Of a DNA stretch of 64,000 nucleotides, positions 1 through 16,280 are shown piece by piece. Every line of letters begins with the position of its first letter. Position 1 is the first letter of the stretch. Location: the NCBI RefSeq assembly GCF_023498005.1, contig NZ_CP097289.1, forward strand, positions 2,976,001-3,040,000, in the 5' to 3' direction. The position numbers and the translations under genes are program-made. The notes under the pieces are model-generated. The model ran no database searches. It saw nothing but the letters and a program-made list of their open reading frames with translations, and was not told the origin of the DNA. The DNA comes from Streptomyces durmitorensis (GTDB taxonomy: Bacteria > Actinomycetota > Actinomycetes > Streptomycetales > Streptomycetaceae).

Positions 1-159
1 GCGCTCGGTCTCGACGCGGACACCGCCCACCTGACGGTCCGGTTCGAACCCACCCAGCCCGACCGGGTGTTCTACCTGGAATCGGGGTCGATGACGAGCG
101 GCGGACCGCCACCTGCCGGCCGCAGCCAAGAGAAAGGTTCCCGATATGCGCACCACTGA
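1..159 (+). CDS. 3' end of an unidentified cluster gene (truncated by window edge)
   Basis: An open frame enters from the left edge and ends at a TGA at 157-159, giving the last 52 residues of a protein. The tail contains LTVRFEPTQPDRVFYLESGS and then a Gly/Pro-rich end. I do not recognise the family from this fragment. The stop lies 14 bases inside the following carrier-protein gene, so the two are very probably co-transcribed and translationally coupled, and it belongs to the same biosynthetic operon. The frame assignment is supported by the overlap and by GC-rich third positions. Confidence 0.55.
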   Translation, partial: ALGLDADTAHLTVRFEPTQPDRVFYLESGSMTSGGPPPAGRSQEKGSRYAHH

Positions 160-421
160 CCACACCGAGACCAGCAACCGTGTCCTGTCGGTCCTCGAGA
201 AGCGCTTCGGCGACGCCGCCCGCTCGCTGGCCCCGGACGCGGACCTGACCGACGCACTGCCGGGATTCGACAGCCTGGCGGCTCTCGAGTACGTCACCGC
301 GGTCGAGGGAGAGTTCGGCATCGAGGTCGACTTCGTCGGCGACGACGTGCGCTATTGGTTCAGCACGCTCGAGCGGACCGCCCAGTACGTACACGAGTGC
401 GTCGAGGACCAGGCGGCATGA
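146..421 (+). CDS. Acyl carrier protein
   Basis: This is a 91-residue free-standing carrier protein. The phosphopantetheine attachment motif GFDSL places the modified serine at residue 43, followed by the usual hydrophobic helix II (LAALEYVTAVEGEFGIEVDF). Length and layout match discrete type II ACPs, which carry acyl or aryl thioesters for partner enzymes in the cytoplasm. The ATG overlaps the preceding gene by 14 bases and the stop overlaps the next ATG as ATGA, so it sits inside a tightly coupled operon with an ANL ligase. The likely job is to hold the acid activated by that ligase; this is inferred from context. It could instead be a peptidyl carrier for an amino acid. Confidence 0.9.
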   Translation: MRTTDHTETSNRVLSVLEKRFGDAARSLAPDADLTDALPGFDSLAALEYVTAVEGEFGIEVDFVGDDVRYWFSTLERTAQYVHECVEDQAA

Positions 422-1497
422 CGGAGACCACGGCTCGTACGGAGCGGCCCCCGGCCCGGGGGCGCGACGAGATCTGCTTTGACACGTCCGGCAGCACGGG
501 AGTCCCGCGGCGCTGGTTCCGGCTCCCCCACCAGATGGAGCGCGAGGTGGAGCTGATCGGCACGCATCTCGTCGGCCCGGTCGATCACGTGGTCAACTAC
601 GCCCCGCCGCAGCACCTGTACGGCGCCCTGTTCGGTCAGTGGCTGCCGCGCCTGGCGGACGTTCGCGTCCACCAGGCGTGGACCGACCCGTTCGCGCCCC
701 TGTCGGTCTCGCCCGGCGAACGCGTCCTGGTCGTCTGCGTCCCGATGGCCTGGGAACTGCTGCGCCGCGGCTGGCCGGCGCTGGAACGCGCGGGCTCGGT
801 CGTCGCCCTGCACAGCTCTGCGGCCCCGCCGCACACGGCCCACGCACTCGTCCGCCGAGCCGCTCCGCTGCTTCGGGCACACGAGATCCTGGGGTCGACC
901 GAGACCGGGGGCATCGCCCACCGGCCGCTGGCCCCAGAGGGTTGCGACGCGGACCCCTGGCAGGCCTTCCCCGACGTCTCGTTCGTCCGTGACGTCGGCG
1001 CACCGGCGGAACGGACGGCGGAGCTGCTGGTGCGCAGCCCGCGCCTGGCCCGCCCGGAGAGCGGGACGCGACCGCCCGACCGGTGGGCCACCGGCGACCT
1101 GGTGCGGTTCACAGGCCCCCGTACTTTCCGGCTCCTCGGGCGCAGCGGCTCCCTGATCAAGGTGAACGGAATCAAGGTGCATCTCGCCAGGGTCGACGAG
1201 CGGCTGAACGCCCGCCTGCCGCAGGCGGAATGCGTCGCGCTGCCCCTGCCCGACGACTCGCTCGCCGGGGAGGGCTACGCGGTCCTCTGGTCCGGCCGGG
1301 ACAACGGAGTGGGCCTCGCGGACATCAGAGCGGCTCTCCGGGATTTCCCAGCCCCGTCGAAGGTCGTGGAACTGGCGGAAATACCAAGAACTTCCACCGG
1401 GAAACCGGACCGAACAGCCCTTCTCTCGGCGCTCCGACCGCCGTCCGCGGCCGTTCGAGAAGTCGGATCGGAAACAACAGTCCTTCCAGGAGTCTAG
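418..1497 (+). CDS. AMP-binding (ANL) acyl/aryl ligase, N-terminally short
   Basis: The 359-residue protein has ANL adenylation motifs: the P-loop TSGSTGVPRR at about residues 23-32, GSTETGG near 159-165, DRWATGDL, the hinge region GRSGSLIKVNGIKV, and the C-terminal A10 motif TSTGKPD with the predicted catalytic lysine at 329. These enzymes adenylate a carboxylate and transfer it to CoA or a carrier thiol. The P-loop normally lies 100-200 residues from the N terminus, so roughly the first third of a typical ANL fold is missing. The ATG at 418 is preferred because it overlaps the ACP stop as ATGA; an earlier start at 355 would run inside the ACP gene. It resembles the small ligases of aryl-polyene-type clusters. 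Likely partner: the upstream ACP. Confidence 0.8.
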   Translation: MTETTARTERPPARGRDEICFDTSGSTGVPRRWFRLPHQMEREVELIGTHLVGPVDHVVNYAPPQHLYGALFGQWLPRLADVRVHQAWTDPFAPLSVSPGERVLVVCVPMAWELLRRGWPALERAGSVVALHSSAAPPHTAHALVRRAAPLLRAHEILGSTETGGIAHRPLAPEGCDADPWQAFPDVSFVRDVGAPAERTAELLVRSPRLARPESGTRPPDRWATGDLVRFTGPRTFRLLGRSGSLIKVNGIKVHLARVDERLNARLPQAECVALPLPDDSLAGEGYAVLWSGRDNGVGLADIRAALRDFPAPSKVVELAEIPRTSTGKPDRTALLSALRPPSAAVREVGSETTVLPGV

Positions 1498-1515: not shown

Positions 1516-2256
1516 TTGATCGTGGTGACCGGTGCGAGCGCCGGCATCGGCAAGGCCACGGCGAAGCGGTTCGCCGAGAACGAAGACAAGGTGCTCCTGA
1601 TCGCACGGCAGGAGAACCGGCTCACGCAGGCGGTCGAGGAGATCCGGTCGTGCGTGCCGGGAGCGGACGTCGAGCCGCTCGCCCTCGACATGTCCGATCC
1701 CGAATCGGCGGAGATCCTTCAGGACCACGTCAGGTCGACCGGGCTGCCGGTCAGCGGCCTCGCGTGCTGTGCGGGTGCGGTCCCGCCGTCCGAAGGTGAG
1801 GACGTGACGTCGGTTCTGGCGGAATGGCAGGAGGCGTACCGGTCGAACGTGATGACCTCGGTCATCGCCGTGGAGGGCTTGATCCCCGTCATGGCCGACG
1901 GTGGCAGCATCGTGCTCTACAGCTCCATCGCCGCCTACCGGGGATCCGGCGGGACAGGTGGGTACGGCGCCGCGAAGGCGGCCCTCCACTCGTACGTCCA
2001 CACCCTCTCGGCGCGCCTGGGGCCGCGCGGCATCAGTGCCAACGCCCTCGCGCCGGGCTATGTCGCGGGCACCGCCCTCTTCGGCGACGGGCTCTCCGCC
2101 GCGCGGGAGACCATGCTCGTCCGGCAGACCGCCCTTGGACGCGCGGGGGATCCGGCGGACGTCGCGGAGCTCGCCCTCTACCTGTGCTCGGGCCCCGGCG
2201 GCTATGTCACCTCGCAGATCATCCAGATCAACGGCGGTTCGTACCACGGCGTTTGA
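1516..2256 (+). CDS. Short-chain dehydrogenase/reductase (FabG-like ketoreductase)
   Basis: A classical SDR of about 246 residues. The NAD(P)-binding motif TGASAGIG lies at the N terminus, the catalytic Ser is near 137, and YGAAK supplies Tyr150 and Lys154. The C-terminal substrate loop (NALAPGYVAGTALF) and end (GGSYHGV) fit 3-oxoacyl-ACP reductases. No ATG is available: TTG at 1516 gives the expected short N terminus, but an AGGAG at 1496-1500 is better spaced for a CTG at 1507, which would add three residues. The preceding ligase stops at 1497, so the genes abut. Probable role: reduction of a beta-keto or aromatic carbonyl intermediate held on the ACP (inference). Confidence 0.85.
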   Translation: MIVVTGASAGIGKATAKRFAENEDKVLLIARQENRLTQAVEEIRSCVPGADVEPLALDMSDPESAEILQDHVRSTGLPVSGLACCAGAVPPSEGEDVTSVLAEWQEAYRSNVMTSVIAVEGLIPVMADGGSIVLYSSIAAYRGSGGTGGYGAAKAALHSYVHTLSARLGPRGISANALAPGYVAGTALFGDGLSAARETMLVRQTALGRAGDPADVAELALYLCSGPGGYVTSQIIQINGGSYHGV

Positions 2257-2344
2257 GGACGCGCGGGGTGCCGCCCCCTCCCCTGTCGGCCGCCCCTCTC
2301 TTCGACCTTTCAGCCCTTCGACCGAGAAAGCACGGTGACATGCC

Positions 2345-3397
2345 ATGAACGCCCGCGAGCAGGCCGACGCGCACGTCCGAGCCATGATGCGCTGGCACTT
2401 CGACCCGGCCACGGGATCCCGGTACTGGCTCGAGCGCCGCGACCGGCTGGGTTTCGATCCGGTCGAGGACGTGCGGTGCGTCGATGACCTGCTGAAGTTC
2501 CCCAACCTGGTGGACGAACTCCGCGACGTTCCGGTCGAGGACCTGATCCCCCGCGGCCTGGACGCCACGGAGAAGGTGTTCGCCGTGTACGAGAGCGGTG
2601 GCACCACAGGGGCCCCCAAGCGCTTCGTGATGTTCGAGAACTGGTTCGACCAGTACATGGCGTGGGAGAACTCCCACTACCCCGATGACGGTGAGGGGCA
2701 CACTCTGGCCGTGGCGCCCAGCGGCCCCCACATGCTCGGCGAGTACTCCAAGAGGATCGCGCAGGCCAGGGGCGGGATCCGGTTCTCCATCGACCTGGAT
2801 CCGCGCTGGGTGAAACGCCTCATCGCGGCCGGTGACTCCGCCGGTGCCGGCGCGTACGTCGATCACCTCGTCGACCAGGCCGAACTGGTCCTGCAGTCAC
2901 AGGACATCGCCTTCCTGATCACGACGCCTCCCCTCCTCGCCCGGCTGGCCCAGCGGGCCTCGGCCCGCGCGCTGATCCAGGAGAAGGTGCGCCTCGTGAT
3001 CTGGACAGGAGCGCACATGGACCTGGACACCCTGGACCATCTGGCCACGGAGCTCTTCCCCAAGACGCGGTTCCGGGGGTCGTACGGCAGCACCTCCGTC
3101 CTCAGCGGCACGGTCCAGCGCCCCGACCCGGAGGGCACGGGCGACACGGTCTTCGACTCGTACGCCCCCTACGTCTTCTACCGCGTGGTCGACCCCTCCT
3201 CCGGTCAGCCGGTCGAGTTCGGGTCACAAGGAGCCGTGGTCATGAACTACCTCACCAAGTACGGCCTCGTGCCCAACAGCCTCGAACGCGACCTGGCCAC
3301 GCGGGTACCCAGCCCCACAGGGGCCGGAGACTCCCTGCGGAACATTCATCCGGTCGCCGAGATGGACGGCCAGAAGATGATCGAAGGCGTCTATTGA
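2345..3397 (+). CDS. ANL-superfamily adenylation protein lacking the C-terminal domain
   Basis: A 350-residue protein with a phenylacetate-CoA-ligase-like ATP-binding loop ESGGTTGAPKR at residues 83-93 and a later GSYGSTSVLSG region equivalent to motif A5. It looks like the compact adenylation enzymes seen in phenazine-type pathways (EhpF-like, from memory). The protein stops soon after the central beta-rich part and shows no A10 lysine segment, so the mobile C-terminal domain is absent or supplied in trans. It follows the SDR by 88 bases, has only a weak purine-rich ribosome site, and its TGA overlaps the next ATG as TGATG. Likely role: activation of an aromatic acid. Whether it is active alone is unclear. 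Confidence 0.7.
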   Translation: MNAREQADAHVRAMMRWHFDPATGSRYWLERRDRLGFDPVEDVRCVDDLLKFPNLVDELRDVPVEDLIPRGLDATEKVFAVYESGGTTGAPKRFVMFENWFDQYMAWENSHYPDDGEGHTLAVAPSGPHMLGEYSKRIAQARGGIRFSIDLDPRWVKRLIAAGDSAGAGAYVDHLVDQAELVLQSQDIAFLITTPPLLARLAQRASARALIQEKVRLVIWTGAHMDLDTLDHLATELFPKTRFRGSYGSTSVLSGTVQRPDPEGTGDTVFDSYAPYVFYRVVDPSSGQPVEFGSQGAVVMNYLTKYGLVPNSLERDLATRVPSPTGAGDSLRNIHPVAEMDGQKMIEGVY

Positions 3398-5034
3398 TGC
3401 CGACCACGCCCACGGCCCGGCACCTGGAACTCGACGGAACCGACCTCTCGCCCCGCTCGGTCGCCGCAGCCGCACGCCGCGACGGCGGTGAGACCCGGGT
3501 GACGCTCGGTGCCGCGGCCACCGAGCGGATGCACGCCTCCGTCGGCCTCAAGGAGACGCTGCTGGCCCAGGAGATCCCCATCTACGCCGTGACGACGGGC
3601 TTCGGGGACAGCTGCGTCCGGCAGATCTCGCCGGACAAGGCGCACGAACTCCAGCGCAACCTGGTGCTCTATCACCTCAACGGCGTGGGACCGAAAGCCG
3701 TACCGGAGGTCGCCCGGGCAGCCATGCTCATCAGGGCCAACGCGCTGGCCAAGGGGGTCTCGGCGATCCGGCCGCAGGCGGTGTCGATCCTCCTTGAGTG
3801 TCTGAGCCGGGACATTCTGCCGTTGATCCCTGAACGCGGGTCGGTCGGCGCGAGCGGTGATCTGGTGCCGCTGTGCTACTTGGCCGCGGCGCTGATCGGC
3901 GAAGGGCAGGTCCTGCACCGCGGCACCGTGCGTCCGGCGCTCGACGCCCTGCGCGACGAGGGCATCGAGCCGCTGCGGCTCGCGCCCAAGGAGGGAATCG
4001 CGCTGATCAACGGAACCTCCTTCGCCGCCGCATACGCGGTCCTCGCCGCCTGGGACGCGAGGGAACTGGCCTTCGTCGCCGAGATCGCGACGGCCATGAC
4101 GCTGGAGGCGCTGCACGGCAACGCGTCGGCACTGCATCCCTTCGTCCACGCGAACAAGCCGCACCCGGGCCAGGTCAAGGCCGCCGGGTCCATTCGGGCC
4201 TTGCTGGCGGGGTCGCGGCTCGCCACTTCCTTCGACGACATTCTGGTGCGCCGCGAAAGGCTGGCCGGGCAGAGTTCCCTGCGGCTGAACGAGAGGATCC
4301 AGGACAAGTACTCGGTGCGCTGTGCCCCGCAGATCATCGGCATCGTCCATGACACGCTCGACTGGACGGAGAGCTGGCTCGGCACCGAGATCAACTCCGC
4401 CACCGACAACCCCCTGTTCGACGTCGCCGGGTCCGGACTCCATCTCGGCGGGAACTTCTACGCCGGCCATGTCGGGCAGGCCATGGACAGCCTGAAGACC
4501 ACGGTGGCCGGCCTGGCCAATCTGCTCGACCGTCAGCTCGCGCTCGTCGTGGACGAGAAGTTCAACGAGGGACTGCCACCCAATCTGGTCGTCGCACGAC
4601 GTCCGGACGAGCCCGAGGCGGGGCTGCACCACGGATTCAAGGGGATGCAGATAGCCGCCTCGGCCGTCACCGCCGAAGCCCTCAAACAGACGGGTCCGGT
4701 TTCGGTGTTCTCCCGCTCCACGGAGGCGCACAACCAGGACATCGTCAGCATGGGCACCATCTCGGCCCGTGACGCGCGCACCGTCAACGGCCTGGTCCGC
4801 GAAGTGGCGGCCATCCATCTGCTCGCCCTTGCCCAGGCCATCGACCTGCGGGGCGTGGAGAAGGCATCACCGGCCGTCCGGGCAGTGCACGGGCTCATCA
4901 GGGAGCACAGCGCCTTCGTCACCCACGACCGCCGTCTGGACCAGGACATCGAGGCGGTGACGGCCCTGATCGAGACCGGAGCCCTGCGGCGCGCGGCGGG
5001 GCTCGGCGACGAGGACTTCGCCGAACGGTACTGA
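3397..5034 (+). CDS. MIO-dependent aromatic ammonia-lyase or 2,3-aminomutase
   Basis: The 545-residue protein belongs to the HAL/PAL/TAL family. The Ala152-Ser153-Gly154 triad in SVGASGDLVPL cyclises to the MIO electrophile. The catalytic Tyr63 lies in IYAVTTGFGD, and the late motif STEAHNQDIVSMG has the Gln and Glu pattern of tyrosine/phenylalanine lyases and aminomutases rather than histidine lyases. The substrate-selectivity pair is Tyr92-His93, unlike the HL, FL or SH pairs I recall for TAL, PAL and HAL. It would convert an aromatic amino acid to an aryl acrylate or to a beta-amino acid. The ATG overlaps the upstream stop, so it is coupled to the preceding ligase gene, a natural consumer of its product. 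Lyase and mutase activity cannot be separated by eye. Confidence 0.9.
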   Translation: MPTTPTARHLELDGTDLSPRSVAAAARRDGGETRVTLGAAATERMHASVGLKETLLAQEIPIYAVTTGFGDSCVRQISPDKAHELQRNLVLYHLNGVGPKAVPEVARAAMLIRANALAKGVSAIRPQAVSILLECLSRDILPLIPERGSVGASGDLVPLCYLAAALIGEGQVLHRGTVRPALDALRDEGIEPLRLAPKEGIALINGTSFAAAYAVLAAWDARELAFVAEIATAMTLEALHGNASALHPFVHANKPHPGQVKAAGSIRALLAGSRLATSFDDILVRRERLAGQSSLRLNERIQDKYSVRCAPQIIGIVHDTLDWTESWLGTEINSATDNPLFDVAGSGLHLGGNFYAGHVGQAMDSLKTTVAGLANLLDRQLALVVDEKFNEGLPPNLVVARRPDEPEAGLHHGFKGMQIAASAVTAEALKQTGPVSVFSRSTEAHNQDIVSMGTISARDARTVNGLVREVAAIHLLALAQAIDLRGVEKASPAVRAVHGLIREHSAFVTHDRRLDQDIEAVTALIETGALRRAAGLGDEDFAERY

Positions 5035-5059
5035 CCCACCCAAGAAGGAGATTCATCGC

Positions 5060-5530
5060 ATGCCGAAGAAGACTTTCGCCCTGTTCACCGTTGCCGCGAG
5101 TGGACTGCTCGCACTGGGAATATCCTCGGTGCTCACCGTTCCCGCGCAGGCCACGTCCGAGAAGGTCATCGACCTGAACGTGGGCAACAACGGAGTCGTA
5201 CACACCGATGTCGGCGCCCCCGGACTGAGCGTCGGGGACGAGTTCGTATACGCGGACAAGCTTTCCCGGGGCGGCAAGCAGATCGGTGAGGACGGCAGTT
5301 CCTGTCAGGTGACCGAGCTGCACGGCTCGGACACCACCACCAGCTGCGTGCTTTCGGTGCGCCTGCCGGAGGGGCAACTGACCGCCCAGTCGCTGTGGGT
5401 GAAGGGCAGCGACACGGTGCGGATGGCCATCACCGGGGGTACGGGCGCCTACCGCGGCGCCACCGGTGAGCTGGCGGCCAAGGACATCCAGACGCCGCAC
5501 GAGACCTACCGCATCACGTTGGACAGGTAG
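5060..5530 (+). CDS. Secreted allene-oxide-cyclase/dirigent-barrel protein
   Basis: A 156-residue exported protein. Residues 1-32 form a Sec signal peptide (KK, a hydrophobic core, then PAQA before TSEK). The mature part is an eight-stranded-barrel type sequence with the hallmark ITGGTGAYRGATGELAAKD near the C terminus, seen in plant allene oxide cyclases and dirigent proteins. A strong ribosome site (AAGGAG) precedes the ATG. It lies 25 bases after the MIO enzyme and 6 bases before the ADH, so it is in the operon. Dirigent proteins steer coupling of phenylpropanoid radicals. Whether this bacterial member is a cyclase, a coupling guide or a binding protein is unknown, but its place beside phenylpropanoid-type enzymes is suggestive. 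Confidence 0.8.
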   Translation: MPKKTFALFTVAASGLLALGISSVLTVPAQATSEKVIDLNVGNNGVVHTDVGAPGLSVGDEFVYADKLSRGGKQIGEDGSSCQVTELHGSDTTTSCVLSVRLPEGQLTAQSLWVKGSDTVRMAITGGTGAYRGATGELAAKDIQTPHETYRITLDR

Positions 5531-5536
5531 GCCGCG

Positions 5537-6583
5537 ATGTCCGACACCCTCGCGCTGTCGCTGCCCGCCAAGGGGGCGCCGTTCACGCTGACCACCATCG
5601 AGCGGCGCCCGCTGCGCGACAACGACGTCCGCATCGACATCAGGTTCTCCGGCATCTGCCACACCGACCTGCACTTCGGCCACGACGACTGGGGTGGGAC
5701 CCTCTTCCCCCTCGTTCCCGGACACGAGATAACCGGGGTGGTCGCGGAAGTCGGCTCCGCCGTCACGGAGTTCACGCCGGGTGACCGGGTGGGCGTGGGC
5801 TGCATGGTCAACTCCTGTGGAAAATGCGCCCCTTGCCGCTCGGGCGAGGAGCAGTACTGCACAGAAGGCTTCGTCAAGACGTACTCGGCCCGTGACCATG
5901 ACGGGACGGTGACGCTGGGCGGTTACAGCCGGTCCATCGTCGTCACGGAGCACTTCGTCGTGCGCGTCCCCGATGGGCTCGAACTCGACCGTGCGGCCCC
6001 GCTGCTGTGCGCGGGCGCCACGGTGTACTCACCTCTCCGCCGGTGGCAGGCGGGTCCGGGCAGGAACATCGGCGTGCTCGGCATGGGCGGTCTCGGGCAT
6101 CTCGGCGTGAAGATCGCCGCGGCCATGGGTGCCGAGGTCACGCTCCTGAGCCGGTCCCCTGACAAGAAGGACGACGCCCTGCGCTTCGGTGCCGCACGGT
6201 TCGTGGACACCCGCGACAGTGAGCAACTCGCCGCGCTCGCCGGTCACTTCGACCTGATCGTCAACACCGTGCCGGCCCTCCTCGACGTGGACACCTATCT
6301 GGGCCTGCTCGGCATCGGCGGCACCCTCGTCCACGTGGGCGCTCCGGCCGACCCGATCGCCTCGTACAACGTGTTCTCCCTGTTGAGTGCCCGTCGCGGC
6401 ATCGCGGGGTCCTCCATCGGCGGAATACGCGAGACCCAGGAAATGCTCGACTTCTGCGCGCGGCACCACATCGCCTCGGAGATCGAGAAGATCCCGGCCG
6501 ACCGAGCAGCCGAAGCCTGGGAGAACCTGTCCGGCGTCCGCTACCGCTATGTCATCGATATCGCCACGCTCGGCACGACCTGA
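5537..6583 (+). CDS. Zinc-dependent alcohol dehydrogenase, cinnamyl-alcohol-dehydrogenase type
   Basis: A 348-residue medium-chain dehydrogenase. Catalytic zinc ligands are Cys41 and His63-Glu64 plus a later Cys in LLCAGAT. Structural zinc ligands are Cys94, Cys97, Cys100 and Cys108 (CGKCAPC and QYC). The dinucleotide site GVLGMGGLGHLG lies near residue 176. The sequence pattern is that of the CAD/YahK branch, which interconverts aldehydes and alcohols, often aromatic ones, with NADP. It begins 6 bases after the barrel-protein stop. In this cluster it could reduce an aryl aldehyde or oxidise a benzylic alcohol (inference). Confidence 0.9.
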   Translation: MSDTLALSLPAKGAPFTLTTIERRPLRDNDVRIDIRFSGICHTDLHFGHDDWGGTLFPLVPGHEITGVVAEVGSAVTEFTPGDRVGVGCMVNSCGKCAPCRSGEEQYCTEGFVKTYSARDHDGTVTLGGYSRSIVVTEHFVVRVPDGLELDRAAPLLCAGATVYSPLRRWQAGPGRNIGVLGMGGLGHLGVKIAAAMGAEVTLLSRSPDKKDDALRFGAARFVDTRDSEQLAALAGHFDLIVNTVPALLDVDTYLGLLGIGGTLVHVGAPADPIASYNVFSLLSARRGIAGSSIGGIRETQEMLDFCARHHIASEIEKIPADRAAEAWENLSGVRYRYVIDIATLGTT

Positions 6584-6653
6584 CCCGGCCGCCGCTTCAA
6601 GGCCCTTCGCGTCCGACCCGACTCTGAAATCAGCAACAACGGAGGCAGATGCC

Positions 6654-8249
6654 ATGTCACCCCAGCGCGTTCCTGTACTCGTCGTCGGTGGCGCCTATAC
6701 CGGGATCACCACTGCTCTGAGTCTTGCGGCACGTGGTGTGCGGCCCCTTCTGGTGGAGCGACGACCGCATTCCTCCACGCTGCCGAAGGCATGGGGACTG
6801 AACACCCGTTCCCAGGAACTGCTCAACACACTGCCCGGCGTGGCGCAGCGGCTCCGCACCGCCCTCGCGGACACCCAGTGGCCCCGCATCAGCCACGGCG
6901 CCTGCCTCGCCGATCCCGAGCGGCTCCACCTCGACCCGCTGGCCGGGCTGCCCGACCCGCAGGAGCTCTCGTCGGTGCCCCCGCTGGCCTGGATATCCCA
7001 GGCCCAGGTCGAGGAGATCCTCCGTACCAGCGCCGAGGAAGCCGGCGCGGACGTCCGCTTCGGCACCGAGATGGTCTCCTTCACCCAGGACGACGAGAAG
7101 ATCACCGCGACACTGCGTGAGGTGGCCGACGGCCGCGAGTACGTGGTCGAGGCGGATTACATGGTGGCGGCCGACGGGAACACGAGCCCGATCCGGGACA
7201 GCCTCGGCATTGCCGTCGAGGGCAGCGGAACCATCGGCCACATGTACATCCTCACGTTCGAGGCCGATCTGACGCGATACGTGGAGAAGGGTGCGGTCGA
7301 GGTCGTCGGAATGCCCGGCAGCGGATCCAGCTTCATCCTGGACGGCTCCGAGCGGCACACGCTGTGGGTCGACTACTTCCCCGAGCGGGGCGAGACGCCG
7401 CAGGACTTCAGCGAGGCGCGCTGCCTGGAGCGGATCCGCCGCGCGATCGGCGACCCCGAGATCGACGTCACCTTCGTCAACGCCCGCTTCTTCGCCATCA
7501 ATCACAAGCTGGCCGAAAGGTTCCGCGAGGGCCGCGTCTTCCTCGCGGGCGACTCCGCGCACGCCTGCCCGCCCAATGGGGGGCAGGGCGGCAACCTCGC
7601 CATTCAGGACGCCTACGACCTGTCCTGGCGGCTCGCGCTGGTTCTCACCGGGCAAGCCGGAGCCGACCTGCTCGACACGTACGAGAGCGAGCGGCGCCCG
7701 ATCGTCACCCTCACTCTCGAGCGCGAGGTCGAACTGGCGAAGATCTCCGAGGGCCGGGTGCCCGCCAGCTACAACCCGTCCGACCCCCATGCCCCCATCC
7801 CCATGCCCAAGGAGTACCTGGGCTTCCGTTACCACTCCGCCGCGGTCCGCACCGAGGCCGACGACGACGGCAGCCTCCAGGAGGATCCCTGGATCGCCAC
7901 CGGGCGCCCCGGGGGACGAGCACCGCACGTCGTCCTCGCCGAGGGCCCGCGGGAGTTCTCCACGCACGACCTGTTCGGTCGCGGTTTCGTGCTGCTCGCG
8001 GGGTACGAAGCACCCCAGTGGGTCTCCGCGGCCGAGAAGGTCGCCCGCCGTCTCGGGGTCACCCTGGCCGCGCACCGGATGGGCGACCGCTTCTTCGACA
8101 GCGGCGACTGGTGCGGCCGTTACGGGGTCGAACCGACCGGCGCCGCGCTGGTCCGCCCCGACGCGGTCGTGGCCTGGCGCGGCAAGAAGGCCGCGGACGA
8201 TCCAGAAGGTGAGCTGACGGCCGCGCTCACCGCGATACTCACCCGCTGA
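6654..8249 (+). CDS. FAD-dependent aromatic monooxygenase (class A, PHBH-like)
   Basis: A 531-residue flavoprotein. The N-terminal ADP-binding loop is GGAYTG (residues 12-17), a slight variant of GxGxxG. The second FAD site is GDSAHACPPNGGQGGNLAI, the usual form in polyketide ring hydroxylases of the TcmG/RdmE kind. The C-terminal 130 residues form a thioredoxin-like tail, where the usual cysteines are not evident. Start chosen at 6654 because a GGAGG lies at good distance; upstream codons overlap the ADH end. It likely hydroxylates or oxidatively opens an aromatic ring of the product using NAD(P)H and O2. It is the last gene of the left-hand plus-strand run. Confidence 0.9.
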   Translation: MSPQRVPVLVVGGAYTGITTALSLAARGVRPLLVERRPHSSTLPKAWGLNTRSQELLNTLPGVAQRLRTALADTQWPRISHGACLADPERLHLDPLAGLPDPQELSSVPPLAWISQAQVEEILRTSAEEAGADVRFGTEMVSFTQDDEKITATLREVADGREYVVEADYMVAADGNTSPIRDSLGIAVEGSGTIGHMYILTFEADLTRYVEKGAVEVVGMPGSGSSFILDGSERHTLWVDYFPERGETPQDFSEARCLERIRRAIGDPEIDVTFVNARFFAINHKLAERFREGRVFLAGDSAHACPPNGGQGGNLAIQDAYDLSWRLALVLTGQAGADLLDTYESERRPIVTLTLEREVELAKISEGRVPASYNPSDPHAPIPMPKEYLGFRYHSAAVRTEADDDGSLQEDPWIATGRPGGRAPHVVLAEGPREFSTHDLFGRGFVLLAGYEAPQWVSAAEKVARRLGVTLAAHRMGDRFFDSGDWCGRYGVEPTGAALVRPDAVVAWRGKKAADDPEGELTAALTAILTR

Positions 8250-8262
8250 TCGGCGGGTCGAC

Positions 8263-9153
8263 TCACCCGTGACGACCGCCCGGCTCCCCATCGGCCGCCT
8301 CGGGCGCTGCTTCCGTGGGGCTGGCCATGTCGAGGAGCAGCATCGCGTCGTGGTCCGGTGTGCCGGGCGGCGCCTGATAGGTGACGAGGCGCTGGCCGTC
8401 CGTGCGGAAGATCGACATCACCTCGAAGTTGAGGCACATCGAGCCGACCTCCGGGTGCTGGAAGTGCTTGTGGCCGCCACCGCGCGCCCGCACGTCGTAC
8501 CGCGCCCACAGGCGAGCGAACTCCGGGCTCTTCACCACGAGTTCACCGACGAGCTGGGCCAGTTCCGGCATGTCCGGGTCGGCGCCCGCCATCGCCCGCA
8601 GATGGGCGGCGCTGTGCCCGGCCATCTCCTCCCAGTCGCGGTACAGACTGCGGCCCATGGGGTGCAGGAACATGTAACGGGTGATGTTGCGGCGCTCCCG
8701 CGGCCAGTCCGTGATGCCGGGGAAGAGGCGCAGGCCGGGGCGGTTGGCGGCCAGCAGGTCGTTGGCGCGGTTGACGACGTACGCCGGGACGGGGCGCAGC
8801 GTCTCCAGCAGCCCGCGGACCGACTCCCGCACCTCACGTGCCGGGCCCGGGGACGGCGCAGGCGCCTGGCCCGCGGCGAGCGCCACCAGCTCGTGCAACC
8901 GCTGCAGCGCGTCGGCGGAGAGCTGGAGCGCCTCGCCGATCGCGGTGACGACGGCGGGCGACGGGCGGGTCTCGCGGCCGCGTTCGAGCCGCGTGTAGTA
9001 GTCGACGCTGACCCCGGCCAGCGTCGCCAGCTCCTCGCGGCGCAGCCCCGGGGTCCGGCGGATGCCCGTACCGACGCGCAGTCCCACGTCCTGCGGACGG
9101 ATCTGCCCGCGACGGGCGCGGAGGAAGCGGCCCAGTTCCGTACCTTCGCTCAT
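8263..9153 (-). CDS. XRE-family regulator with MmyB-like ligand domain
   Basis: The 296-residue protein has an N-terminal helix-turn-helix (roughly residues 10-70, with RREELATLAGVSVDYYTRLE) followed by the MmyB-like domain common in actinobacterial regulators (YVVNRANDLLAANRPG, then the RYMFLHP region). ATG at 9153 gives the standard N terminus (MSEGTELGRFLRARR). It is convergent with the FAD monooxygenase (13-base gap) and divergent from the MFS gene. The shared intergenic space carries five direct repeats, so it most likely controls the exporter and itself in response to a small molecule (inference). Confidence 0.88.
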   Translation of the reverse strand: MSEGTELGRFLRARRGQIRPQDVGLRVGTGIRRTPGLRREELATLAGVSVDYYTRLERGRETRPSPAVVTAIGEALQLSADALQRLHELVALAAGQAPAPSPGPAREVRESVRGLLETLRPVPAYVVNRANDLLAANRPGLRLFPGITDWPRERRNITRYMFLHPMGRSLYRDWEEMAGHSAAHLRAMAGADPDMPELAQLVGELVVKSPEFARLWARYDVRARGGGHKHFQHPEVGSMCLNFEVMSIFRTDGQRLVTYQAPPGTPDHDAMLLLDMASPTEAAPEAADGEPGGRHG

Positions 9154-9285
9154 CCCTTCAGTGTCGCAAAGGCGCACGCCCGCGGGAGGGCTCCAGGGGG
9201 GCCGTATCAGGACCAGGAACGTCGCTCCCCCGCGCGGCTCGGTCTCCCGGGGGGCCGCACAGAGCACGCACGCTGTTTTCCGTAC

Positions 9286-9344
9286 CCGACCCATGTCCGA
9301 CCCAGATCCGACCCATGTCCGACCCGTACCGACCCGTACCGACA
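9286..9344. promoter_or_regulatory. Direct-repeat array in the divergent XRE/MFS promoter region (candidate operator)
   Basis: Five head-to-tail copies of CCGACCC plus 3-4 variable bases lie at 9286-9296, 9297-9307, 9308-9318, 9319-9328 and 9329-9338, with a partial sixth at 9339-9344. The period is 11, 11, 11, 10 and 10 bases, close to one DNA turn, so a bound protein would meet the copies on the same face. The array ends about 28 bases before the MFS start and begins about 130 bases before the XRE start. It could be a regulator binding array or a slipped simple repeat. Confidence 0.5.
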
Positions 9345-9371
9345 GATAGACGCAGTGAGGAGCAGTACACG

Positions 9372-10802
9372 ATGAGGGTGACGCAATCCGGGACAGGCGC
9401 GGGAGTCGAGGCGAGTACGGGTGCCCAGGGTGAGCCGGGGCGTCCAGGCTCCGCCCGCGCGGCTCTGGTCGCCGCCGTCCTCGGCTTCTTCGTGATCACG
9501 CTGGACGTCTCCGGCGTCAACGTGGCCCTGCCCGCCGTGCGGGACGATCTCGGCGGCTCGATGTCAGGGATCCAATGGGTCGCCGACAGCTATACGTTGA
9601 TGTTCGCGGCCCTGATGCTCTCCGCGGGCGCCTTCTCGGACGCGGTGGGCGCGCGGCGCGCGTACGGCTGGGGGCTCGGCGTCTTCACCCTCGCCTCGCT
9701 GGCCTGCGGGGCGGCACCGACGCTCGGGGCGCTGATGGCGGCCCGCGTGGTGCAGGGCAGCGCGGCGGCCGTGATGGTGCCCGCCTCGCTTGCGTTGATC
9801 CGGCAGGCGTTCCCCGATGCGGACGCGCGGGCACGTGGCATCGCCCTGTGGACCGTTGGCGGCGCGGTGGCCGTGGCCGCGGGGCCCGTGCTGGGCGGAC
9901 TGCTCACCACGGAGTGGAGCTGGCGCACCGTGTTCCTCCTCAACGTGCCTGCCGGGCTCGCCGGTTTCCTGGTCCTGCTGCGGGCGGCGCGCTCCCCGCG
10001 GCACGCTGCCGCCTTCGATCTGCCGGGGCAGCTGACGGCCGTACTGGCACTGGCCGCACTGACCTTCGCCGTGATCGAGGGCGGGCACGACGGGCTCACC
10101 GGCACCGTGCAGGTCACAGCCGTGGTCGCGGTGGCGTCAGCAGCCGCGTTCGTGGCCGTCGAGGCCCGGCGACGCGCGCCGATGCTGCCGCTGGGACTCT
10201 TCCGTCAACGCGGCGTCAGCGTGCCCGTCGTCGCGGGCTTCGCCCTCAACGCCGCCTTCTACGGCGGGGTGTTCGTGCTGAGCCTCTTCTTCCAGGAGGA
10301 GCGGGGGCAGTCGGCGCTCTCGGCCGGGCTGATGTTCGTGCCGATGGCGGTGATCACCGCCAACTTCAACTACCTCTCACCGCGGGCGGTCTCCCGCTAC
10401 GGCCCGCGGGCGGTGGTCGTCGCAGGACTGCTGACCGGCGCTGTGGGCTGCGGCGGTCTGGTAGCCGTCGACACCGGCACGCCGTGGTGGGTGACCGCCC
10501 TGCTGATGATCCCGCTGGGCATCGGCGGCTCCCTCGCCATGCCGGCACTGACCTCGCTGATGCTCGACAGCGTCGCCGCCGAGCGGGCCGGCACGGCAGC
10601 GGCACTGCTCAACACCAGCCGCCAGACGGGCGGAGCACTCAGCATCGCGGTCTTCGGCGCGCTGCTCGCCGGGGACTTCGCGCCGGGGATGCGGGAGAGC
10701 CTGCTGCTCGCCGCCTGCCTGCTGCTCGCCAATGCGCTGGGCGCGGCGGCACTGCTGCCGCGGCGGGTGAGGACGGCGACGGTCGCCGCTGCGAACTCCT
10801 AG
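9372..10802 (+). CDS. MFS multidrug/metabolite exporter (DHA2-like, about 14 TM)
   Basis: The 476-residue membrane protein starts with a short cytoplasmic tail and then FFVITLDVSGVNVALPAVRDDL, the typical TM1 region of the 14-helix drug:H+ antiporters. Many hydrophobic segments follow, with the LxxxRxxQG-like motif ARVVQGSAAAVMVPASLALI. ATG at 9372 has an AGGAG at 9358-9362; longer starts would run into the repeat array. It is divergent from the XRE regulator and lies inside the biosynthetic cluster, so export of or self-resistance to the product is the natural guess. Confidence 0.9.
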   Translation: MRVTQSGTGAGVEASTGAQGEPGRPGSARAALVAAVLGFFVITLDVSGVNVALPAVRDDLGGSMSGIQWVADSYTLMFAALMLSAGAFSDAVGARRAYGWGLGVFTLASLACGAAPTLGALMAARVVQGSAAAVMVPASLALIRQAFPDADARARGIALWTVGGAVAVAAGPVLGGLLTTEWSWRTVFLLNVPAGLAGFLVLLRAARSPRHAAAFDLPGQLTAVLALAALTFAVIEGGHDGLTGTVQVTAVVAVASAAAFVAVEARRRAPMLPLGLFRQRGVSVPVVAGFALNAAFYGGVFVLSLFFQEERGQSALSAGLMFVPMAVITANFNYLSPRAVSRYGPRAVVVAGLLTGAVGCGGLVAVDTGTPWWVTALLMIPLGIGGSLAMPALTSLMLDSVAAERAGTAAALLNTSRQTGGALSIAVFGALLAGDFAPGMRESLLLAACLLLANALGAAALLPRRVRTATVAAANS

Positions 10803-10905: not shown

Positions 10906-11964
10906 TCAGCCGGTCCCCTCTGCCAGCGCCGCGGTCCGCCGCGGTCCTTCGAGGCCGGCCACACGCATGTGGTCGCGGACCATCCATCCGGCCTGGAACC
11001 GGCTCTGCGCTCCCAAATCGTCGAAGATCTCGGCAATGTACTTCCGGCACGTCCGCACACCGATGCCCAGGCGTCTGGCCACCACTTCGTCCTTGTAGCC
11101 GGCGGCGAGCAGTTGAACGATCGCGGTCTTCGTCTCCTGGGTCAGGCACTCCGGGATTCTGTTGCTGCCACCCGTCCGCTGAAAGACCTCGCTGGTCGCC
11201 CAGGAGCTCACCACCATGTGAACGATGAACTCCACCAAGGCTCCGTGCTTCACCATGTGCGCCTTGCCCGGATCCTCGCCGTCCAGCAGGAACGCCACGG
11301 AGCGGTCGAAGACGATCAGCGCGGGCAAGGACGCGGCGGCGGTCCGGACCTCGCCCCCCGTCGCCGAGATCCGTTCGACGCAGTCGCGCACCTGAGCGTC
11401 GTAACGAGACAGGTGAGGGAGTAACACCCGCACGCCGACCTCCGGCGACATCAGCCCCGAAGCCCGGCAGACCACGTTCCGGGCGAGGGCGGAAGCTCCC
11501 CGCCCGAGTGGCTGCACGGCGAACACCTCCTCGGTGCACCGTGCCGCGCGCTCCTCGAGCACGTCGCGGATGTCGGAAACGCCCTCGAACGTGACCACAA
11601 GGCCGCCGCCCTGCGCGCTGTCGACGCCGAGGCCGGAGAGCGTGTCGAGCTGCTCGCGGATCCCGTCCAGCTGAGCCTGCCAGGCGTCGATGACGCCCGA
11701 GAGAGGTTTGGCGTACTGGAGCTTGGCCGTTTCCGGGTGCACCGCGGTCCAGTCGCTGTGGCCCTCCGCCTCGGATCGCGCAAGCCGCATCCTTCTGAGC
11801 CGGGACAGCACTCGCTCCGTCTGTCCCGTGCCCCACCCCAGACTTCTCGCCAGTCTCTCAAGGGTGGCTCCGCCGGTGGAGACGAGAAACCGATAGGCCA
11901 CCAACTCCTCGTCACCCATCAGCGGAACGATCTGGGCGATGTCCACAGCTTCCCCCTTGCCCAC
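10906..11964 (-). CDS. TrmB-like/LuxR-type transcriptional regulator (pathway regulator candidate)
   Basis: A 352-residue protein. The N-terminal 75 residues look like a winged-helix (LVSTGGATLERLARSLGW), the middle is an effector-like domain of about 190 residues, and the C-terminal 65 residues form a LuxR-type helix-turn-helix (QETKTAIVQLLAAGYKDEVV, then RRLGIGVRTCRKYIAEIFDD). The same architecture occurs in many Streptomyces cluster-situated regulators. The start is GTG at 11964; a later internal Met is possible. It is divergent from the PKS across a 234-base AT-rich region, so direct control of the PKS promoter is likely. Confidence 0.82.
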   Translation of the reverse strand: MGKGEAVDIAQIVPLMGDEELVAYRFLVSTGGATLERLARSLGWGTGQTERVLSRLRRMRLARSEAEGHSDWTAVHPETAKLQYAKPLSGVIDAWQAQLDGIREQLDTLSGLGVDSAQGGGLVVTFEGVSDIRDVLEERAARCTEEVFAVQPLGRGASALARNVVCRASGLMSPEVGVRVLLPHLSRYDAQVRDCVERISATGGEVRTAAASLPALIVFDRSVAFLLDGEDPGKAHMVKHGALVEFIVHMVVSSWATSEVFQRTGGSNRIPECLTQETKTAIVQLLAAGYKDEVVARRLGIGVRTCRKYIAEIFDDLGAQSRFQAGWMVRDHMRVAGLEGPRRTAALAEGTG

Positions 11965-12198: not shown

Positions 12199-15100
12199 AT
12201 GCGTACAGAACTGTCGAGCACGACACCCATCGCGATCGTCGGCATGGGGTGCCGGTTTCCGGGCATCGAGAGTCCCGATGAACTGTGGGACGTGCTCGTG
12301 GCCAACACCGACACCGTGACCCCGGTCCCCCACGAGCGCTTCGACGTCGGCGACTGCTACGACCCCACCCCCATGACCCCCGGTCGGACCGTGTCCCGGC
12401 ACGGCGGTTTCCTGGCCGACCCCTTCGGCTTCGACGCGGCCTTCTTCGGCATCTCACCCGTGGAAGCACGCGCCATGGATCCACAGCAACGACTCCTGCT
12501 GCACGTCGTGTGGGAAGCCTTGGAGTCGGCCGGGATACGTCCCTCCCGGCTCGCGGGCAGCCGGGGCGGCGTGTTCGTCGGACAGGCCACGTCCGAGCAC
12601 GCGGAGACCGACCCCCGGATCCACGAGCCCGATGTCCGCGGCATGGTCGGCAGCCGACTGCGCGCCGTCACGGCCGGCCGGATCTCCTACGCCTTCGACC
12701 TGCGCGGGCCAAGCGTCGTCCTTGACACCGCGTGCTCCTCGTCGCTGGTCGCCGTGCACGCCGCACGGCAGAGCCTGCTCACCGGTGAGAGCGACCTGTG
12801 CGTCGCCGCGGGCGTCAACGTCATCCTGTCCCCGCACGACTCCATCGCCTACGCCCAGGGAGACATGCTCTCTCCCGGGGGCCGCTGCCGGTTCGGCGAC
12901 GCCCGCGCCGACGGGTTCGTCCGCAGCGAAGGCGTGGGCGCGGTGGTGCTCAAGCGGCTGGACGACGCGCTCCGGGACAGCGACCCCATATGCGCGGTAC
13001 TGCACGGCAGCGCGGTCACCAACGACGGCGCGGCGAGCGGACTGCTGATCCGCCCCTCTGTGGACGGGCAGACCGAGATGATGCGCGAGGCCTGTCTCAG
13101 TGCCGGTATCAAGCCCACGGAACTCGACTACGTCGAAGCGCACGGCACCGGGACTCAGGTCGGGGACGGGGTGGAACTCCGGGCGCTCGCCGAGTCGGCC
13201 GGCCCGGGTCGGCCGGCAGACCGGCCGTTGCTCACCGGATCGGTCAAGACCAACCTCGGTCACACCGAGGCCGCGGCCGGCATCGCCGGACTCATCAAGA
13301 CCGCGCTGATCCTCCGGCACGGTGTCGTTCCCGCGTCGCTGCACCTCGACGAGGAGCATCCCCTGCTGGCGCAGGACGGTTTCCCCGTGCAAGTGGTGAC
13401 CCGCAACCGGCCCTTGAACACGGCGAACACGGCCGGTTCCGGCGCCCTGGCCGGTGTCAGCTCCTTCGGCCTGTCCGGGACGAACGCCCATCTGGTCGTC
13501 GGCGCCCACGTCCCCGGGCCCGCGTCCGCGTCCGCGTCCGATGAGCGTCGCAGAGCCACGGACGCCGGGCCCCACCTGCTGGTGCTCAGCGCGCGGACGT
13601 CCGGCTCGCTCCGTCGCCTGGCCGAGAGTTACGCGGCCTACCTGGGCCCCTCCGGGCCCGGTCGCCCGTACCGGCTCGGCGACATCTGTTCCGCCGCGGC
13701 CACCGGGCGCGACGCTCATCCGCACCGGCTGTGGGTCGTGGGCGACGACCACGACTCCCTGTCGCAGAGGCTGCGCGCCCTCGCCGCGGGCGAGACCCTT
13801 CCCGACGGCGGAATCGCGGAGGCGGGCCTGTCGGGTGACAAGCGCATCGCCTTCGTCTTCTCGGGGCAGGGGTCGCAGTGGGTGGGCATGAGCCGGGCTC
13901 TGTACCGTTCGTCGTCGGCCTTCCGCACGGCATTGGACGCGTGCGACCGGGCCGTGCGCAAGGAGCTCGGCCGGTCGGTCCTGGAGCAACTGGCCTCCGA
14001 CGACCTCGAGTTCCCCACTGACGTGAGCACCGTCCAGCCCGCCCTGTGGGCCGTACAGGTGGCGCTCGCCGCTGCCTGGCGCGATCGCGGCGTGGAGCCG
14101 GACCTGTGCATGGGCCACAGCATGGGAGAGGTCGCGGCCGCCCATGTCTCCGGCGCCCTGTCACTCGACGACGCGGCCGCGGTGATCTGCCGACGCAGCC
14201 GACTGATGCAGCGCACGGCGGGACAGGGCGCCATGCTCGTCGTCGAGCTGTCGGCCGCCCAGGCGCGGCAGTACACCGAGGCGCACGGGGAGTCGGTGTG
14301 CGTGGCGGCCGAGAACGCGCCCACCACCACCGTGCTCGCGGGTGATGCCGCCTCCCTCGCCTCCCTGCGGGCCGAACTGGAGAAGAGCGGCGTCCTGTGC
14401 CGCCGGGTGCAGGTGAACGTGGCCTCGCACTCCCCGCAGATGGACTCCCTGCGCGACGACCTGCTGCGCGAACTCGCCGTTCTCTCCCCCGGGCCCGGGG
14501 CGACGGCCATGGTCTCCACCGTTGACCGCTCCGACGTCGAAGGACCGGAGCTGACGGCCGGCTACTGGATGGACAACCTGCGCCGCCCCGTCCAGTTCGC
14601 CGACACCGTACGGGAAGTGGCCCACGCGACGGAGAGCGTCTTCCTCGAGGTCAGCCCGCATCCGGTTCTCGTCGCCGCCATGGACGACACACTGGGCGCC
14701 GACCACGGCGACGGCGCCGCGGTGGCTTCGCTGCACCGCGGGTGCGACGAGCCCACCGACCTGGCCCGGGCGGCCGGCCGGCTCTTCGCCCAAGGCGGGC
14801 GGGTGGACTGGCAGCGGTGGTACGGCGGCGGCCCACGGCACGTACCGTCACTTCCCACCTACTCCTGGGACACGGTGCAGTTCCGGCGCGAGGTGGCCGA
14901 CCCCGTGGCCGGACACGGATCCGGCGCCTCCCAGGTCCGGCGGATCGACCTCGCGTCATGGGGCGCGACCGCCGCATGGGGTGACGGCGTCGCGGTCCAC
15001 GGAGTCGCGCCCGTCCCGCCCGTCGTGTACGTCGCGGCGATGCTGGAAACGGCGCAGGAGGCCGATCGCAGCGCATCCGTCGAACTGCGGGACGTGCAGC

Positions 15101-16149
15101 TGGGCGACGCACATGTGCCCGTCGAAGCGGCCGGCGACACCACCCTCCAAGTGGCCCTGGACGGGCACCGGGAAGGAGACGGACAAGCCCGCACCATGAC
15201 GGTGCGAGCCTCGCGCCCGGGCACACCCGACTCCGTCTTCTGCGCTTCGGGACGGGTCGTCAGGGCGGACACCGACGACGCGGGACCCGAGACCTCGGGC
15301 GCCCTCGACGATGCTCTGGCACGGTGCCGGGACTACGTGGGGGCACAGGACTTCCACGCACTCGCGCGGCGCCACGGGTACGACATCGGAGAGGCGTTCC
15401 GTTCCGTGGAGCATCTGTGGCGGCGCGACGGCGAGGCCGTGGCTCGCGTGCGGCTGACGAGGCCCATGCCACGAGCCGGCTGGGAGGCGGGGCTCCAGTC
15501 AATCCTGGCGGCCCGGCCGGGAGCCGCGTCCGGCAACGACGACGTCGCCCACGTGCCCGTGTCCTTCGATTCGGTCCGGTTCCACGCGGAACTGGAGCCG
15601 GAGTTCTGGAGCCTGAGCACGGTGCGGCCCGAGAGCGGCGGAGCCTCGCTCCGGGCCGACGTACTCCTGATCGCACCGGACAGTCGCGTCCTGGCCCGGT
15701 TCTCCGGAATCCGTTTGCGGCGGCTCGCACGGACGTCGCGGCCGAGCACGCCCCTGGCAGACGTGCCCGCGCTCGTATCGGCGCTCGCCGAGCAGTGCAC
15801 GGCGCCGCTGACCGGTCTGGTCAGAAGGGTCACGGAGCCCTTCGGCGCCGGCTTCCTCGGCGGCCTCCTGCGCCCCGCCGTATCGCCGCCGGCCGACCCG
15901 GATCCCGAGACCTCGTCCCGCCCCCGTGGCACAGACGCGGCGGAGACCCTTCTCGCGCACTCCGCAGCGCTGTTGGGCATGCGGGTGTCGGACATCGACG
16001 AGCGGCGGTCGTTGCACGAACTCGGTCTCGACTCGCTGATGGCCTCCCGGCTCCGGCAGCGCCTGCATCACCGTCACGGCGTCGAGATCACCGCAGGGCG
16101 ACTCCTGGGAACGGAGAGCGTCGCCAGCCTGCGCAAGAGCCTGGGATGA
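12199..16149 (+). CDS. Iterative type I PKS, orsellinate-synthase type (KS-AT-DH*-ACP)
   Basis: A 1316-residue single-module synthase. KS at about 8-435 has catalytic Cys179 (DTACSSSLVA), His315 (HGTGTQ) and His355 (NLGHTEAA). AT at about 550-860 has Ser641 in GHSMGEV, with VASHS near the substrate pocket. A DH/product-template-like region at about 900-1170 is degenerate: the HxxxGxxxxP box reads VAVHGVAPVP, so the expected His position is Val, and the later Asp is replaced in EAGLQS. There is no ketoreductase. The C-terminal ACP has Ser1279 (LGLDSLMAS); no thioesterase is present. This order and length match bacterial orsellinic acid synthases (AviM, CalO5; recalled), which make an unreduced tetraketide and need a separate acyltransferase for release. 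Start: ATG with GGAG seven bases upstream. Confidence 0.92.
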   Translation: MRTELSSTTPIAIVGMGCRFPGIESPDELWDVLVANTDTVTPVPHERFDVGDCYDPTPMTPGRTVSRHGGFLADPFGFDAAFFGISPVEARAMDPQQRLLLHVVWEALESAGIRPSRLAGSRGGVFVGQATSEHAETDPRIHEPDVRGMVGSRLRAVTAGRISYAFDLRGPSVVLDTACSSSLVAVHAARQSLLTGESDLCVAAGVNVILSPHDSIAYAQGDMLSPGGRCRFGDARADGFVRSEGVGAVVLKRLDDALRDSDPICAVLHGSAVTNDGAASGLLIRPSVDGQTEMMREACLSAGIKPTELDYVEAHGTGTQVGDGVELRALAESAGPGRPADRPLLTGSVKTNLGHTEAAAGIAGLIKTALILRHGVVPASLHLDEEHPLLAQDGFPVQVVTRNRPLNTANTAGSGALAGVSSFGLSGTNAHLVVGAHVPGPASASASDERRRATDAGPHLLVLSARTSGSLRRLAESYAAYLGPSGPGRPYRLGDICSAAATGRDAHPHRLWVVGDDHDSLSQRLRALAAGETLPDGGIAEAGLSGDKRIAFVFSGQGSQWVGMSRALYRSSSAFRTALDACDRAVRKELGRSVLEQLASDDLEFPTDVSTVQPALWAVQVALAAAWRDRGVEPDLCMGHSMGEVAAAHVSGALSLDDAAAVICRRSRLMQRTAGQGAMLVVELSAAQARQYTEAHGESVCVAAENAPTTTVLAGDAASLASLRAELEKSGVLCRRVQVNVASHSPQMDSLRDDLLRELAVLSPGPGATAMVSTVDRSDVEGPELTAGYWMDNLRRPVQFADTVREVAHATESVFLEVSPHPVLVAAMDDTLGADHGDGAAVASLHRGCDEPTDLARAAGRLFAQGGRVDWQRWYGGGPRHVPSLPTYSWDTVQFRREVADPVAGHGSGASQVRRIDLASWGATAAWGDGVAVHGVAPVPPVVYVAAMLETAQEADRSASVELRDVQLGDAHVPVEAAGDTTLQVALDGHREGDGQARTMTVRASRPGTPDSVFCASGRVVRADTDDAGPETSGALDDALARCRDYVGAQDFHALARRHGYDIGEAFRSVEHLWRRDGEAVARVRLTRPMPRAGWEAGLQSILAARPGAASGNDDVAHVPVSFDSVRFHAELEPEFWSLSTVRPESGGASLRADVLLIAPDSRVLARFSGIRLRRLARTSRPSTPLADVPALVSALAEQCTAPLTGLVRRVTEPFGAGFLGGLLRPAVSPPADPDPETSSRPRGTDAAETLLAHSAALLGMRVSDIDERRSLHELGLDSLMASRLRQRLHHRHGVEITAGRLLGTESVASLRKSLG

Positions 16150-16280
16150 CCCCCGCGTTACGGAGAGGGTGCTTTGGCAGGATCAGAAACCAAACTTGCA
16201 CTGTGGTATAAAAAAACCTCCAGCAGCGTCGGGCCGTGTCACTCAGGCTTGATGTGCTCGACACAAACAGGAGGGACGGA
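16150..16280 (+). promoter_or_regulatory. Short AT-rich promoter region before the TetR gene
   Basis: 131 bases between the PKS stop and the TetR start. It contains GTGGTATAAAAAAACC near 16202, the most AT-rich stretch in the area and a plausible -10 region, and an AGGAGGG ribosome site just before the TetR ATG. A loose inverted repeat (GTGTC ... GACAC) spans about 16233-16262 and might be an operator; weak. Confidence 0.4.

Follow-up and report, generated by a model that had tools for sequence, protein, structure and literature searches.

A barrel protein in a conserved gene cluster

We analyzed a 64,000-nucleotide stretch of Streptomyces durmitorensis DNA (the window; positions 2976001-3040000 of a 9.86 Mb genome in 2 contigs). 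It encodes, consecutively on the plus strand, an aromatic lyase of the 4-methylideneimidazole-5-one (MIO) type, a small barrel protein, and a zinc alcohol dehydrogenase (ADH). The three genes are separated by 25 and 6 bases, and a ribosome-site-like AAGGAG sequence precedes the ATG of the barrel gene. Their products fall into clear families (PF00221, PF18678, and ADH_N/ADH_zinc_N, respectively), in agreement with the initial annotation. Two ligase-like ANL genes (ANL2 and ANL3) precede the lyase, as also proposed there, with a short-chain dehydrogenase/reductase (SDR) between them. The gene set begins left of the window edge, where 20 kb were read and a third ANL gene (ANL1) was found.

The barrel protein is a conserved member of this cluster. 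A lyase scan of genome contigs, from which the best 80 of 90 loci were taken, returned the whole block at six loci, all of them with the barrel. Searches with the alpha-alpha toroid protein of the cluster (392 genomes of the genus and 391 of the order) gave five further whole-block loci (L123, L124, L125, L146, and L147), again all with the barrel. Window included, all 12 whole-cluster loci thus have a barrel ortholog; ANL2 is likewise present in all 12, and the lyase in 11. The most similar toroid proteins among these loci share 94.1% identity, and the next pair 90.4%. The suggestion that barrel and lyase belong together therefore stands, whereas the suggested pairing with the ADH proved variable (see below).

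The barrel and the toroid protein are found in the same genomes. Barrels at E <= 1e-18 occur in 14 of the 392 genus genomes, and the four with at least 68% identity are the same four that encode a toroid protein of at least 78%. By our arithmetic, such an overlap would have a chance near 1e-9 if the genes were independent, although clusters move as blocks. At a relaxed threshold (E <= 0.001), barrels appear in 56 of 199 same-genus genomes. A class-wide search of 246 genomes found only weaker barrels (41-44%) outside the genus.

The barrel is tied to an aldehyde-derived unit rather than to the cluster core, because it and a GriC/GriD-like reductase pair are present or absent together across loci. 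Ten core-only loci carry ANL1, the toroid protein (49-54%), a small protein, an acyl carrier protein (ACP), and ANL2; the roughly 20 kb read at each holds no barrel, ANL3, or GriD-like gene. One of them, L069, has the same 33600 bases and genes as L129, which was not counted beside it. Weaker barrels (34-42%) lie elsewhere: 11 of 13 such places were retrieved, and none of the 11 has a cluster gene in the 16-20 kb read. Ten of these AOC_like paralogs (L153-L163, leaving out L157, which gene calling missed) were placed in a tree, where they group apart from the closest orthologs; they lack Asp66 and Tyr150. Some, read by eye, lie near LysR, sigma-factor, or SnoaL-like genes.

Predicted pathway from tyrosine

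The lyase is probably a tyrosine ammonia-lyase. Its sequence contains an Ala152-Ser-Gly triad, Tyr63, and a Tyr-His-Leu-Asn (YHLN) motif, the last shared by all six named whole-cluster lyases. We take these to be the MIO triad, the catalytic tyrosine, and, in His-Leu, the selectivity pair. The best NCBIfam model is that of BagA/FevW (NF041222, an "exception" model), which scores 655.6 bits, below its cut-off of 1000. Nine scanned relatives of the lyase are also below this cut-off (618.7 to 806.9). The aminomutase model TIGR03832 reaches 386.7 against a cut-off of 501. By homology, the lyase would convert tyrosine to 4-coumarate, and the extra DAHP synthase (3-deoxy-D-arabino-heptulosonate 7-phosphate synthase) of the cluster would raise tyrosine supply. 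The cluster is probably an actinobacterial hydroxycinnamate pathway.

ANL3 and a GriD-like aldehyde-dehydrogenase-like protein are predicted to form an aryl-acid reductase. They match adjacent genes of L216 (41% and 32%, respectively), a locus that we call grixazone-type from its PF01959 match and from our reading of its other genes. This comparison covered the neighborhoods of 20 of 46 DHQS-family matches. ANL1 was rejected as the GriC-like half, since ANL3 is the better match in L216; ANL1-like genes (~30%) occur in three of the 20 loci (L204, L207, and L214). In the available text of PMC10179220, GriC adenylates and GriD reduces 3-amino-4-hydroxybenzoate. Here, the pair would adenylate an aryl acid and reduce it to the aldehyde. 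We further infer that this acid is most likely 4-coumarate, because the tyrosine-type lyase adjoins. ANL2 might load the ACP.

The ADH is dispensable to the cluster, as far as gene content indicates. Its closest PDB match is YahK (1uuf, E 7.9e-101), followed by sinapyl ADH (1yqd, E 2e-99), which places it in the cinnamyl-alcohol-dehydrogenase (CAD) type. Orthologs of at least 77% identity occur at five of 12 loci, a count that leaves out L035, L036, L037, L043, and L044, read to at most 10 kb on either side of the lyase. In whole-genome searches, the ADH of G247 lay ~10 kb and that of G635 ~12 kb from the barrel, whereas G314 and G592 gave no ortholog above 59%, so that two of six genomes are without it. 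Where it is present, the aldehyde could be reduced to an alcohol; the conserved SDR might catalyze a similar step. The initial annotation had read a plant-like order of chemistry into the locus. Homology agrees with that order as regards a tyrosine-type lyase, activation of the acid, and formation of the aldehyde, but the ADH step varies among loci. Moreover, one half of the GriC/GriD-like pair lies left of the window and is not visible in the window alone.

An iterative type I polyketide synthase (PKS) accompanies the pathway. Its ortholog is linked in all six genomes followed that far (the window's, G247, G635, G314, G592, and G378), which bears out the proposed link to an orsellinate-type PKS. 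The layout suggests a small aromatic product, not a diene. The aryl unit may be coupled to what the PKS and a flavin adenine dinucleotide (FAD) hydroxylase produce, or be modified in parallel with it, and a major facilitator superfamily (MFS) pump would export the result.

Fold and candidate role of the barrel protein

The barrel protein is an AOC_like protein (PF18678) whose nearest solved relative is PodA. Its predicted model has the eight-stranded allene oxide cyclase/dirigent (AOC/DIR) fold expected by the initial annotation, but the structure nearest to it in sequence and fold is PodA (PDB 5k21) and not a dirigent; chains for this comparison were ranked by Foldseek for VIA-align. Profile matches are E 6.5e-36 for PodA, 0.003 for PyrI4, and about 1e-3 for dirigents, and with the single sequence dirigents match at E 0.77. 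The dirigent family PF03018 scores 21.4 bits, under its gathering cut-off of 29.1. With the family below cut-off and sequence matches remote, we do not class the barrel as a dirigent protein; in the predicted model, its likeness to dirigents is one of fold only. The fold of the AbyU/PyrI4 barrel cyclases is similar to the model as well.

The extracellular coupling raised by the initial annotation would amount to dirigent-like guidance of radical coupling between monolignol-type alcohols. In addition to the remote dirigent matches, the ADH ortholog that would supply such alcohols is absent in two of six genomes, and a scan of 18 cluster genes found no laccase, peroxidase, or copper oxidase (the search did not extend to oxidases encoded elsewhere in the genome). 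We consider this role highly improbable. The labels "dirigent" and "guided radical coupling" exceed the evidence, because PodA is the closest relative with a solved structure and none of the cluster genes is recognized as an oxidase that could form radicals. The overall interpretation of the initial annotation is thus partly supported.

The barrel is predicted to be exported. An N-terminal Lys, a hydrophobic stretch, and a PAxA-like motif (pattern match) occur in 31 of 37 close orthologs, and this conserved signal-like pattern would fit Sec secretion. Two cysteines are kept in 12 of 12 loci; for this reason we do not equate the barrel with the dirigent-like gene of S. formicae, which is without a disulfide bridge in the part of PMC9344732 available. 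The closest barrels, including those of the window and of Actinokineospora, form one branch (support 96/94, 25 rows). More distant database barrels, among them those of Allokutzneria and Saccharopolyspora, fall outside it, and the PodA branch is long and of unsure placement. We assume that the active-site set of PodA is D72, H121, E154, and Y156. Asp66, Glu148, and Tyr150 of this pocket are kept in the barrel, and His121 is replaced by Lys115.

We favor, tentatively, a serious possibility: that the barrel is an extracytoplasmic acid/base tailoring enzyme acting on a quinoid phenol. After export by Sec, the protein would perform PodA-like acid/base catalysis beyond the membrane on a phenol in its quinoid or quinone-methide form, in a pocket around Asp66, Glu148, and Tyr150 with Lys115 in place of the PodA histidine. 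The reaction might be a rearrangement, hydration, cyclization, or coupling.

The kinship with PodA would also fit self-protection, in which the barrel detoxifies or sequesters a redox-active phenol of the cluster outside the cell, like PodA on pyocyanin, and is not needed for the product. The barrel abuts an XRE regulator or MFS gene in L036, L037, L040, L043, L124, L125, L146, and L147; in the rearranged Actinokineospora locus L044, it lies beside the XRE gene, with the MFS gene next, ~8 kb from the lyase. However, it abuts neither in L035, L123, or the window itself; in G247 (L123), the XRE and MFS genes stand upstream of the DAHP synthase gene and the barrel is still beside the lyase. As the PodA histidine is not kept either, we regard self-protection as unlikely. 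An AbyU/PyrI4-like role as a pericyclase or cyclase, with a polyketide-derived substrate and an incidental extramembrane location, would suit the fold. This role is distinctly unlikely given the conserved signal-like N-terminus, the much closer match to PodA than to PyrI4, and a PKS layout better suited to a small aromatic product than to a diene.

Several points weigh against an acid/base tailoring enzyme in a hydroxycinnamate pathway. Clusters travel as blocks, so co-occurrence proves membership and not mechanism. G378 (L125), a draft of ~300 contigs, keeps the barrel, the reductase pair, and the ADH, and has no lyase above 38% identity genome-wide. The GriC/GriD-like pair was seen in one of the 20 fetched DHQS-family loci, so that this link comes from a single locus, L216. 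PodA His121 is replaced by Lys or, in L044, by Thr, and the L044 barrel additionally carries Asn in place of Asp66. Finally, the barrel fold could serve several chemistries, of which that of quinone methides is one.

In a further reading, a bacterial phenylpropanoid pathway would have its own dirigent-like enzyme outside the cytoplasm, namely the barrel, derived from a PodA-like ancestor. It would capture a coumaryl-type unit in its quinone-methide form, which by then might be linked to an orsellinate-type polyketide, and steer a stereodefined addition or cyclization like plant dirigents and pterocarpan synthases. This reading is doubtful.

Neighboring genes and known systems

The conserved cluster extends from the DAHP synthase gene to a TetR gene (Table 1). 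In each of the other five genomes with a PKS ortholog, a similar TetR gene, read by eye, adjoins that ortholog. A search for sigma-70-like promoters and terminators in 2200-9400 found none; shuffles give 0.2 and 1.8, which makes this result little informative. The FAD hydroxylase scores 478 bits with NF046069, below the cut-off of 700.

Table 1. Genes of the cluster in window coordinates; negative values count bases left of the window start.
Feature	Coordinates	Strand	Remarks
DAHP synthase	-5835..-4810		outside window, left
GriD-like aldehyde-dehydrogenase-like protein	-4756..-3350		outside window, left
ANL1, PaaK/BagE-like	-3353..-2028		third ANL gene; outside window, left
Alpha-alpha toroid protein, 576 aa	-2031..-301 (L004:17969-19699)		PF00432
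Met-Pro1 tautomerase-superfamily protein, 148 aa	-287..159	+	only 3' part (1..159) inside window
Free-standing ACP	146..421	+	PF00550 27.3 bits, cut-off 20.8
ANL2, short 4-coumarate-CoA-ligase-like adenylating enzyme	418..1497	+	TIGR02372 79.7 bits, below cut-off 334.7
SDR, FabG-like reductase	1516..2256	+	PF13561 145 bits; YGAAK invariant in 14 aligned rows
ANL3, GriC-like acid-activating half of two-component carboxylic acid reductase	2345..3397	+	41% to L216 gene, residues 8-350
MIO enzyme, probable tyrosine ammonia-lyase	3397..5034	+	PF00221 Lyase_aromatic 538.7 bits
AOC_like/PodA-like 8-stranded barrel, signal-peptide-like N-terminus	5060..5530	+	PF18678 83.8 bits, gathering cut-off 25.9
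YahK/CAD-type zinc ADH, optional cluster member	5537..6583	+	ADH_N, ADH_zinc_N
FAD aromatic hydroxylase, RdmE/rifampin-monooxygenase-like	6654..8249	+	PF01494 286 bits; start codon chosen by us
XRE/MmyB-like regulator	8263..9294	-	PF17765 189.9 bits
DHA2-type MFS exporter	9315..10802	+	PF07690 177.8 bits
LuxR/HTH-type regulator	10906..11964	-	HTH_23 and GerE matches slightly below cut-off; kept in cluster
Iterative type I PKS, KS-AT-DH-ACP without KR or TE, orsellinate-type layout	12199..16149	+	
TetR regulator, right border of conserved cluster	16236..16904	+	PF00440 57.8 bits

Among the core gene products, the toroid protein stands out most; it has weak similarity to Rab GGTase beta and to squalene cyclases. 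The small upstream protein is a candidate cis-CaaD-like tautomerase-superfamily member, with Pro1 after the start codon and a predicted beta-alpha-beta fold. Its orthologs occur in 22 of 22 loci compared (12 whole-cluster and 10 core-only). Of 33 members, 10 match Tautomerase_3, at E values of 0.019 at best, and no Pfam family exceeds its cut-off. The core of ANL1, toroid, tautomerase, ACP, and ANL2 recurs in L126, L127, L128, L148-L152, L069, and L070, often with an MIO enzyme and class-II DAHP synthase, amidase, or ATP-grasp genes. No published description was matched to this five-gene family, and none of the present cluster was found in the open-access literature.

Individual clusters carry further genes, named by eye from their sequences and not by family search, as are the class-II DAHP synthase, amidase, and ATP-grasp genes above. 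HmaS, Hmo, and HpgT (hydroxyphenylglycine) genes lie within the clusters of G247 (L173) and G635 (L174), and that of G247 also has a flavin halogenase and an A-PCP protein. Chorismate synthase and shikimate dehydrogenase-like genes stand between the MFS and FAD hydroxylase genes at L037:13982-17803 and L124:2902-5435; L037 also has a gene like that for 5-enolpyruvylshikimate-3-phosphate (EPSP) synthase.

The cluster context narrows the substrate class of the barrel to a hydroxycinnamyl or orsellinate-type phenol. According to the portion of PMC9344732 available, a 2022 survey covered 49 bacterial dirigent-like proteins, only two of them in predicted clusters and neither with an assigned reaction. 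Here, one such barrel accompanies a cluster of predictable early chemistry at all whole-cluster loci observed.

The barrel differs from each of its characterized relatives. PodA demethylates pyocyanin and is described as a trimer (PMC10521758, available in part); the barrel has Lys115 where PodA has His121, and no phenazine gene is recognized in the cluster. Since the histidine is not kept, we do not class the barrel as a PodA demethylase. Dirigent proteins such as AtDIR6, PsPTS2, and GePTS1 are remote in sequence and belong to a family whose cut-off the barrel does not reach; they act together with a phenoxy-radical-forming oxidase, and none is recognized in the cluster. The cyclases AbyU, PyrI4, Cyc15, and PloI4 are similarly remote.

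The predicted pathway would share its early steps with known systems. In the accessible text of PMC6692506, BagA/FevV is the source of coumarate for both bagremycin and ferroverdin; like the present cluster, bag/fev combine this tyrosine ammonia-lyase with a DAHP-synthase-type gene (fevY) and an adjoining PaaK-type synthetase. There, however, UbiX/UbiD decarboxylate coumarate to p-vinylphenol. In place of this route, the cluster described here has the reductase pair, barrel, tautomerase, toroid protein, and PKS. The reductase pair resembles GriC/GriD of grixazone biosynthesis, but six other genes lie between its two halves, and coumarate takes the place of 3-amino-4-hydroxybenzoate as the presumed substrate.

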